A stretch of 11,955 nucleotides of DNA. Source: Candidatus Vogelbacteria bacterium CG22_combo_CG10-13_8_21_14_all_37_9 (GTDB taxonomy: Bacteria > Patescibacteriota > Minisyncoccia > Phycocordibacterales > XYD1-FULL-46-19). This document shows positions 10,066-11,404 of the stretch, one piece after another. The notes below the pieces were generated by a model, which made no database searches, was not told the origin of the DNA, and worked only from the letters and a program-made list of their open reading frames with translations. Within the stretch, counting starts at the first letter, position 1. Every line of letters begins with the position of its first letter. The position numbers were made by a program, and so were the translations under genes. The stretch covers positions 1 to 11,955 of the forward strand of contig PCSX01000013.1 in the NCBI GenBank assembly GCA_002772495.1, written 5' to 3'.

Positions 10066-10149
10066 TTACTCGCCCCGTGGGAGCAAAGCGACTTTACGGG
10101 GGTCTCCGGAAGGTTTGAAAGGTGAAATTAAATTAAATTTTTCAGTCAT
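10066..10149 (-). pseudogene. duplicated, truncated uvrB start (27 codons)
   Basis: An ATG at 10149, overlapping the last codons of tgt by 8 nt, opens a 27-residue frame. It begins [16 protein letters not shown], the UvrB N-terminus, then continues through a palindromic element as PRKVALLPRGE and ends at TAA (10066-10068). The segment 10102-10140 is copy A of the duplication; copy B is inside uvrB. The frame is offset by 101 nt from the true uvrB start, so it cannot be a longer UvrB. I read it as the remnant of an earlier uvrB start that overlapped tgt, cut off when the palindrome arrived. It could still act as a short leader peptide that couples tgt and uvrB translation, as its stop is 17 nt before the uvrB ATG. 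Confidence 0.75.
10073..10101. repeat. 29-nt palindromic element between tgt and uvrB
   Basis: The ends CCCCGT (10073-10078) and ACGGGG (10096-10101) are complementary. The core GAGCAAAGCGA (10081-10091) is identical to the core of the element in tgt, in opposite orientation. The element abuts the duplicated uvrB start segment exactly at 10101/10102. Confidence 0.75.
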
Positions 10150-11404
10150 GATGGTAATTACTTAAAAATTGCTCTTTAAACTCAAAAAACTTTTCTTCAA
10201 TAATAGATTGGCGAATATTCTTAACTAAATTAACAAAAAAATAAAGATTATGAATCGAAGCCAAGGTGCTAGCTAGCATTTCTTTAGCTCGAAACAAATG
10301 AGCCAAGTAAGCTCGAGTAAAATTCTGACAGGTATAACAAGCGCAAGTCGGATCCAGAGGAGAAAAATCAGTTCGGAATTTAGCATTTAAAATATTGATC
10401 CGACCAGTCAAAGTATAGAGCGAGCCATTACGCGCTTCCCGAGTCGGAGTCACACAATCAAAAGTATCGGCTCCATTTTCAATCCCAATGAACAAATCTT
10501 CTACTGCCCCGATACCTAATAAATGTCGTGGTTTATTAACCGGCAAAATCGAATTGACCCAATGGACCGCGGTCCCCATATCCGCTTTATCAAAAGAACC
10601 ACCAATGCCGAAGCCGTCAAAATCAAGTGAAGCAATAAACTTAGCGCTTTGTTCGCGCAAGTCTTGATGACGACCACCCTGAACAATTCCGTACAGAGCT
10701 TGCCCACCTAAGTTTTTTTCAGAAAAATTTTGGCGGGCTTGAACATTTAATCTCTGATGTTCTTTTAAAGATCGTTGGGCCCATTGGTGAGTCCGTTCTA
10801 AAGCTTCTTTTTGATAATCCAAACTAGCTGACGGAGCGGTGCATTCATCAAAAGCAAAAATAATATCGGCGCCAATTTGATGTTGAATTTCAATCGAACG
10901 TTCAGGAGTCAAACGTAACTCCGAACCATCTAAATGCGAGCGAAAAGTCACACCGTCATCATCGATTTTAGCGAGCTTTCCCCCGTAAGATTCGCTTTGC
11001 TCATCACGGGGCAGACCGACCTCTGTTGATTCTATAGTCTTTCCTTCAACCGCAAACTTTGTCACTCCCACTTCACCATAGGCCACCCCGAGTGAAAAAA
11101 CTTGAAAACCACCAGAATCAGTCATCGTTGGTCCAGACCAGTTCATAAATTTATGCAAACCTCCAGCTTCAGCCACAATTTTTTCTCCCGGTTCTAAAAA
11201 TAGATGATAAGTATTAGCTAAAACCACTTGAGTCCCCAAATCTTTGATTTGTTCGGGGGTAAGTGCTTTAACTGTCGCCTTGGTCCCAACCACTACAAAA
11301 GCCGGCGTTTGGATCTCGCCATGAGGGGTAGTAATGGTCCCAACTCGGCCTAAAGCCCCCGGAATTTCTTTGGCAATTTTAAACTTAAAACTTTTTTCGG
11401 CCAT
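10142..11404 (-). CDS. tgt: tRNA-guanine transglycosylase
   Basis: Tgt swaps guanine-34 of GUN-anticodon tRNAs for a queuosine precursor (preQ1 in bacteria). The 420 residues have the base-binding [11 protein letters not shown] at 96-106 with general-base D96, [11 protein letters not shown] at 181-191, the substrate pocket YGIVQGG (238-244), the nucleophile D316 in [15 protein letters not shown], and the zinc site C354, C356, C359 and H385 (DPTCACYTC and IHNLYFF). All key residues are present. Compared with E. coli Tgt (375) there are about 35 extra residues at 107-143. I recall an insert here in Patescibacteria Tgt, but residues 132-142 ([11 protein letters not shown]) are coded by a palindromic element. 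No queuosine-synthesis gene is in view, so the precursor may be imported. The start follows the dehydrogenase gene by 33 nt with no Shine-Dalgarno. Its end overlaps the 27-codon uvrB remnant. Confidence 0.96.
10981..11011. repeat. 31-nt palindromic element inside tgt
   Basis: Read on the minus strand it begins CCCCGTGATGAGCAAAGCGA and ends ATCTTACGGGG. It matches the 29-nt element between tgt and uvrB apart from a few substitutions and two inserted bases, in the opposite orientation. It codes in frame for [11 protein letters not shown], Tgt residues 132-142. Confidence 0.78.

Follow-up and report, generated by a model that had tools for sequence, protein, structure and literature searches.

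Three copies of a short palindromic element lie in the DNA analysed here, an 11,955-nucleotide contig that we call the window: one in uvrA, one in a partial duplicate of the start of uvrB and one in tgt. Our analysis suggests that these are probably copies of a non-autonomous, REP-like mobile palindrome, on which a RAYT-type Y1 HUH enzyme would act in trans. The original prediction of a dispersed family with both coding and non-coding members is borne out, since relatives of the element occur within unrelated genes, where they use both strands and several frames, as well as within 23S rRNA, RNase P RNA and spacers. Moreover, the family differs from both superfamilies of REPs described so far, those tagged GTAG and those tagged CGTC, in its CYTG tag and its variable inner stem.

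Results

The three copies and their hosts

The window is one contig (C14) of a genome of 494,502 bases in 38 contigs that is 93.6% complete. Among its genes are those for a D-alanine ligase and a histidine kinase as well as uvrC, uvrA, uvrB and tgt; it has no match in Rfam. Copy 1 (10069..10101, + strand) consists of CTCG at the tag position (10069-10072) and a 29-nt hairpin (10073-10101), and matches our covariance model with E 1.4e-8. Copy 2 (10981..11015, - strand; E 1.8e-6) consists of a 31-nt hairpin (10981-11011) and a tag position (11012-11015) that reads TCTG on the - strand, and is translated as 11 residues of Tgt. Both had been predicted at these places, in opposite orientation and with common ends, which we confirm. 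To these two we add a third, diverged copy in uvrA (5987..6022, + strand; tag CTTG at 5987-5990 and a 32-nt hairpin at 5991-6022), where it amounts to 12 UvrA residues on the coding strand. The covariance model matches it at 5985-6025 (-) with E 3.4e-6 for the genome and 1.9e-6 in a second run.

Aligned with one of them reversed, copies 1 and 2 read CCCCGTGG-GAGCAAAGCGA-CTTTACGGGGG and CCCCGTGATGAGCAAAGCGAATCTTACGGGGG; they differ at five of 32 columns, and two of these differences are gaps. Both fold into hairpins on either strand, and the similarity between them ends where the unit ends. The pattern CCCCGT-N8..30-ACGGGG has exactly these two matches in the whole genome and its reversed control has none; the 11-mer core GAGCAAAGCGA is likewise confined to the two copies there. 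With the covariance model at E up to 0.01, under strict filters that scored 16 of 183 first-look candidates and may pass over other diverged copies, the genome yielded no copy beyond the three. If there are only three, the probability that all fall in one 12-kb contig under random placement is about 6e-4, a figure calculated post hoc.

The host of copy 2 is tgt (10142..11404, - strand, 420 aa; NCBIfam TIGR00430.1, E 2.6e-142), and that of copy 3 is uvrA (4393..7050, - strand, 885 aa; PRK00349.1, E 0). Copy 1, which had been called intergenic, lies near the real uvrB (7946..10048, - strand, 700 aa; PRK05298.1, E 2.1e-279), within a second, incomplete copy of the uvrB 5' end (10103..10151, - strand), of which 16 residues remain before copy 1 breaks it and a stop follows. 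This duplicate forms a repeat family (D9) in which 10103-10140 is 89% identical to 9999-10036; copy 1 comes after its codon 16 and the real start of uvrB comes next. In five of the 17 relatives whose tgt-uvrB gap we examined (L051, L054, L060, L186, L187), uvrB starts almost directly after tgt. The Tgt loop that holds copy 2 differs among 29 aligned relatives, taken from 51 genomes with a match, and thus the stretch is, as anticipated, not ordinary conserved protein. Two relatives from another genus (L245, L248) carry the element at a different place in Tgt.

The window holds other repeats as well. At the site in uvrB where another genome, G296, has the element, uvrB of the window carries a CGCGGACAAACGC-type repeat, and two further genomes (G144, G384) have similar repeats there. 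A second repeat family, TGCGTTTGTCCGCGTC-like, occurs at 9016-9055 in uvrB, at 4398-4426 near the end of uvrA and at 3883-3911 in uvrC, its uvrB copy lying in the loop where other genomes have the hairpin or similar repeats; allowing up to 2 mismatches, the 16-mer TGCGTTTGTCCGCGTC occurs five times in the genome, twice within the window. A perfect 17-nt inverted repeat with a 4-nt loop lies in the coding region of uvrC (3698-3735), and the gap between uvrA and uvrC (4273-4348) contains a 22-nt inverted repeat that is 91% complementary. Finally, 7183-7848 is a 221-aa open frame that has no NCBIfam match, with CCCCGGGTCTGCAATCTTGCAGACCCGGGG at 7139-7168 just past its end.

Make-up of the unit

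Across the family the unit consists of a 4-base tag, usually CTTG or CCTG, and an imperfect hairpin. In the hairpin the outer stem (CCCCGT/ACGGGG) is constant, a bulge follows, and the inner stem varies but covaries; tag and hairpin together span about 33-36 bases. Written tag first, the unit is CYTG followed by CCCCGTG-[variable inner stem and loop]-YTTTACGGGG, with 33 nt as its commonest length. The original prediction took a consensus core for the conserved part; what the family conserves is the ends, the bulge and the tag. A search with that core alone returned just the two copies and would have suggested no family at all, and was abandoned.

Of 60 copies found, 53 were non-duplicate and 26-34 nt long, and the model was built from 48 of these (L069, L092, L100, L101 and L104 being omitted). 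What the copies have in common is the outer stem, an AAA/C bulge and a 3' neighbour, CARG(C). At the tag position, read in forward sense and hence as the reverse of CTTG or CCTG, 55 of 100 model matches have CAAG (33) or CAGG (22); in the same sense, A precedes 41 of 60 copies and C follows the tag in 38 of 60. In the inner stem, 61 cells changed on both sides, compared with a mean of 24.1 after shuffling and with no shuffle among 500 reaching as high, while structures slid along the alignment gave 4-16 such cells. The outer stem is uninformative in this respect because the copies were selected by it. Hairpin length is 23-41 nt in 181 of 182 copies and 61 nt in the remaining one, in keeping with the 20-40 nt of the small dispersed hairpins known as GTAG REPs.

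Distribution across genomes and phyla

Copies had been expected elsewhere, and they are found in the order though not, among the candidates scored, in the rest of the window's own genome. The pattern of ends occurs in 27 of the 397 genomes of the order (its reversed control has 4 matches in all) and the covariance model finds matches in 37, with at most 8 in any genome, both of these model counts being lower bounds from 16 scored candidates per genome. Scanning GTDB contigs for the ends and the tag gave at least 114 contig stretches. The 80 matches listed fall in many lineages of Patescibacteria and in Omnitrophota, WOR-3, Deltaproteobacteria, Planctomycetota, Myxococcales, Stahlbacteria and Pedosphaera; they come mostly from metagenome bins, in which contigs may be misplaced. 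We ran the model on 73 of these stretches (at least 114 in all), seven of the 80 listed being omitted as repeats of genomes already included. Of the 31 bases of the tgt copy, 1 is different in a copy from a related genome (L090, genome G008), 2 in L277, 2 in a copy from Omnitrophota (L322) and 3 in L091. The viral collection had no exact match to the family pattern, and we dropped the idea of viral carriage on that ground.

In all there were 184 model matches, or 182 distinct copies once two repeats were dropped. Three pattern matches (L084, L104, L117) are excluded from the host counts below; of the three, only L104 was run through the model, which gave no match.

Insertion as a unit

Comparisons of several kinds show that the element enters genes, RNA genes and spacers as one unit, and sometimes enters or lands beside another copy. 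Opposite the stretch of UvrA encoded by copy 3, the solved chain 9gxk_A has a gap of 12 residues, that is, of 36 nt, which equals the 32-nt hairpin plus 4. At the site of the element, UvrB of G296 has 11 residues more than that of G317, from the same genus, and the 33 nt equal 29 plus 4; this comparison gives the size of the insert rather than its exact ends, as the adjoining residues differ too. In L256 a 33-nt copy splits another copy, and the two halves of the split copy match siblings in the same genome (L106, L107). Lastly, the Omnitrophota bin S014_49 has head-to-tail copies, ...TTTACGGGG-CTTG-CCCCGTG..., in tandem arrays (L308:6170-6290 and L322:170-275) joined as ...ACGGGG-CTTG-CCCCGTG.... 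These four sources agree on the size of the unit, which is therefore, tag first, CYTG plus hairpin. They also uphold the earlier suggestion of a mobile or copied element.

Copies inside genes

By our own count, 41 of the 182 distinct copies lie inside Pfam-supported genes. They use both strands and several frames, contributing peptides such as PRKIASLSRG, DPVKSQGDHGA, PRGEQSELYGG and CPVRAKRFYG. Open frames that have no Pfam support were not counted as coding, nor were the copies in ClpP (L072), FtsK (L085), an exonuclease (L256) and the tail of L22 (L083), which lie near the N-terminus or outside the domain. Other copies lie between genes, and 23S rRNA and RNase P RNA hold one each (L073 and L086, respectively).

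The combined length of hairpin and tag is a multiple of 3 in 33 of the 41 coding copies and in 75 of the 141 others (Fisher p 0.0012); with 29-mers left out, the figures are 14 of 22 and 26 of 92 (p 0.0024). Such an excess is expected if insertions that shift the frame are selected against. Eight coding copies are off frame, among them the one in Tgt (31 + 4 = 35 nt), and these need a further indel. As with the Rickettsia palindromic elements (RPEs), in-frame copies occur in unrelated conserved genes, with 40 Pfam-supported hosts, and the insert is absent from homologues in the two cases compared, UvrA and UvrB.

Sorted by their Pfam names, a sorting of our own, 11 of these 40 hosts belong to DNA repair or recombination (LigA, UvrA twice, UvrB, UvrC, RecG twice, RecR, a DNA-alkylation-repair protein, a Pif1-like helicase and an MgsA/RarA-like protein) and 14 to tRNA charging or modification, although one of the latter, an RNA pseudouridine synthase, may act on rRNA. 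Tgt is a host in three genomes, two of them of one genus, and TsaE and PheT in two each. A Colwellbacteria uvrA carries two copies and has a third just upstream (L343:5643-6512). As a background we took 30 length-weighted open frames from other loci, out of 40 drawn; none encodes a repair protein (one encodes the replication clamp DnaN) and two are tRNA-related. The excess of repair and of tRNA hosts over this background has Fisher p 0.001 and 0.005, respectively, for small samples from loci gathered differently, many of them around transposases, so the enrichment of both classes is suggestive only.

Y1 transposases

The original prediction also pointed to a Y1 (RAYT-like) transposase, and here we found a correlation, with no flanking copies at RAYT genes in the loci searched. 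A Y1_Tnp match is present in 35 of the 37 element-bearing genomes and in 214 of the 360 others (p 3.7e-6), with kinship ignored and with any such match counted as a RAYT in the genome, whether a RAYT proper or not. The unrelated transposase family rve, our control for mobile-element load, leans in the same direction (13 of 37 compared with 79 of 360, p 0.058, kinship again ignored), the Y1 association being much the stronger. Two genomes with the element (G093, G398) are absent from those with a Y1 match, and the window's own genome has two Y1_Tnp matches.

No Y1 or RAYT gene flanked by the element (a REPtron) was seen in 61 loci, mostly around the best Y1 matches and covering part of the Y1 genes of 249 genomes, nor in the loci around copies, and hence these loci offered no dedicated transposase for the element. 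The 61 loci hold a single weak match to the element (L161), about 0.8 kb from the gene. RAYTs that do lie near copies (L090, L103, L285) have other palindromes or inverted repeats alongside, and in five of eight loci (L162, L171, L173, L174, L090) a RAYT-like gene has one palindrome on both sides, a different one for each gene. An automatic search for hairpins common to both flanks, being overly strict, missed pairs of this kind. Like the element these palindromes are hairpins, but of other sequence, each beside its own RAYT gene in the same genomes. In the window's genome, TGTGCGAAATCGGATTTCGCACA stands on both sides of one of the two RAYTs, that of contig C2, and a diverged copy lies in uvrC of the window, where 3837-3859 is a 23-nt palindrome with 3 mismatches to it; at up to 3 mismatches these are its only three places in the genome. 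In L162, CCCGTCAAGGAGGCTCCTTGACGGG occurs three times, around and within the RAYT-like gene.

Because no RAYT in the 61 loci is flanked by the element and other palindromes stand beside RAYTs, mobility rests on comparison of the copies themselves, and the enzyme is what we infer. Mobilisation in trans by Y1 (RAYT-like) transposases is likely but unproven.

Discussion

How does the element relate to palindromes already described? Intragenic REPs and Rickettsia palindromic elements are established (PMC3733652), and TnpAREP/RAYT enzymes are described as recognising the REP tag and hairpin on single-stranded DNA (PMC8266576). GTAG REPs, which are associated with these enzymes, are palindromes 20-40 bp long that bear a 4-base tag at their 5' foot and, in group 2 REPs, a bulged imperfect stem; they are dispersed, form arrays and are sometimes intragenic, and in all this our element is alike (PMC3733652, PMC8266576). 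It differs in its tag, which is CYTG rather than GTAG, in its few copies (the per-genome maximum given above, from 16 candidates each), in that no REPtron was seen and in having 41 of 182 copies in Pfam-supported genes. Nor does its flank preference, A before and C after in forward sense, match the CT site described for TnpAREP. CGTC-tagged REPs, such as Rickettsia RPE-4 and RPE-6 and Neisseria dRS3, have no dedicated transposase and occur within genes, including repair and tRNA genes (PMC3733652), again as our element does. However, they are characterised by a CGTC, TGTC or CCTC tag, an 8-9 bp stem starting with AT and a CCA tail, whereas the element has a stem starting with CCCC and a CYTG tag; moreover its inner stem is highly variable and its host phyla are different. 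RPE-1 and other Rickettsia palindromes stand in frame in housekeeping genes, as the element does, RPE-1 being described as the longer (PMC3733652). In the open-licence literature we found no title on such elements in Patescibacteria.

Could copies 1 and 2 have arisen together, by a local inverted duplication within the tgt-uvrB region, rather than by two insertions? All three copies found in the genome are in one contig, copy 1 is itself surrounded by a duplication of the uvrB 5' end, and the two copies have their core in common. Yet their similarity stops at the ends of the unit and the tgt copy resembles copies from other genomes, that of L090 above all, more than it resembles its neighbour, so that we consider a local duplication very unlikely. 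It is more improbable still that the hairpins are functional sites in RNA or DNA (terminators, mRNA stabilisers, uptake or recombination signals) that were selected repeatedly and never copied. The hairpins do covary and many lie outside genes; but the nested copy, the tandem arrays and the insert-sized gaps fit no regulatory site, and neither do copies within UvrA, UvrB, 23S rRNA and RNase P RNA. A scan of 9900-11500 for Rho-independent terminators, with a GC stem and a T-run, covered the copies at 10073 and 10981 and listed neither.

A tentative alternative, doubtful in our view yet deserving more weight, is that the element moves by something other than a RAYT, be it another transposase, an integrase or template switching at hairpins, and that the correlation with Y1 reflects mobile-element load. 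The lack of an element-flanked RAYT in the loci searched would fit this, as would a tag that is neither GTAG nor CGTC, the two carrier genomes with no Y1 match and the like-minded lean of the rve control. Against it stand the strength of the Y1 association relative to that of rve and an architecture that matches REPs, with a 5' tag, an imperfect hairpin, a bulge and insertion as a single unit.

We favour copying by a RAYT-type Y1 HUH enzyme, which would act in trans on the folded single strand. Such an enzyme would recognise the tag, the outer stem and the bulge, leaving the upper stem free to vary. Copies retained in genes mostly add complete codons. In the window, insertion hit UvrA, a hypervariable Tgt loop and the redundant, duplicated start of uvrB, once each. 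Presumably all three copies were tolerated rather than selected for a new function.

One may go further and suppose that this cross-phylum CYTG family, mobilised in trans by RAYTs, is preferentially kept in repair and tRNA genes because it tunes them, for instance towards heritable mutator states. We think this unlikely. If it were true, the preference for these gene classes would be a general property of REP invasion, since repair and tRNA genes are also the host classes named in 2013 (PMC3733652) for unrelated intragenic REPs. To find the same concentration with a different element in different phyla makes that old speculation testable: either repair and tRNA genes are unusually tolerant of inserts, or the inserts are selected.

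More generally, our analysis shows that small genomes of Patescibacteria carry a mobile hairpin, with close copies in other phyla, that adds about 9-14 amino acids to conserved enzymes. As a corollary, the predicted proteins of such genomes include inserts that do not represent homologous protein.
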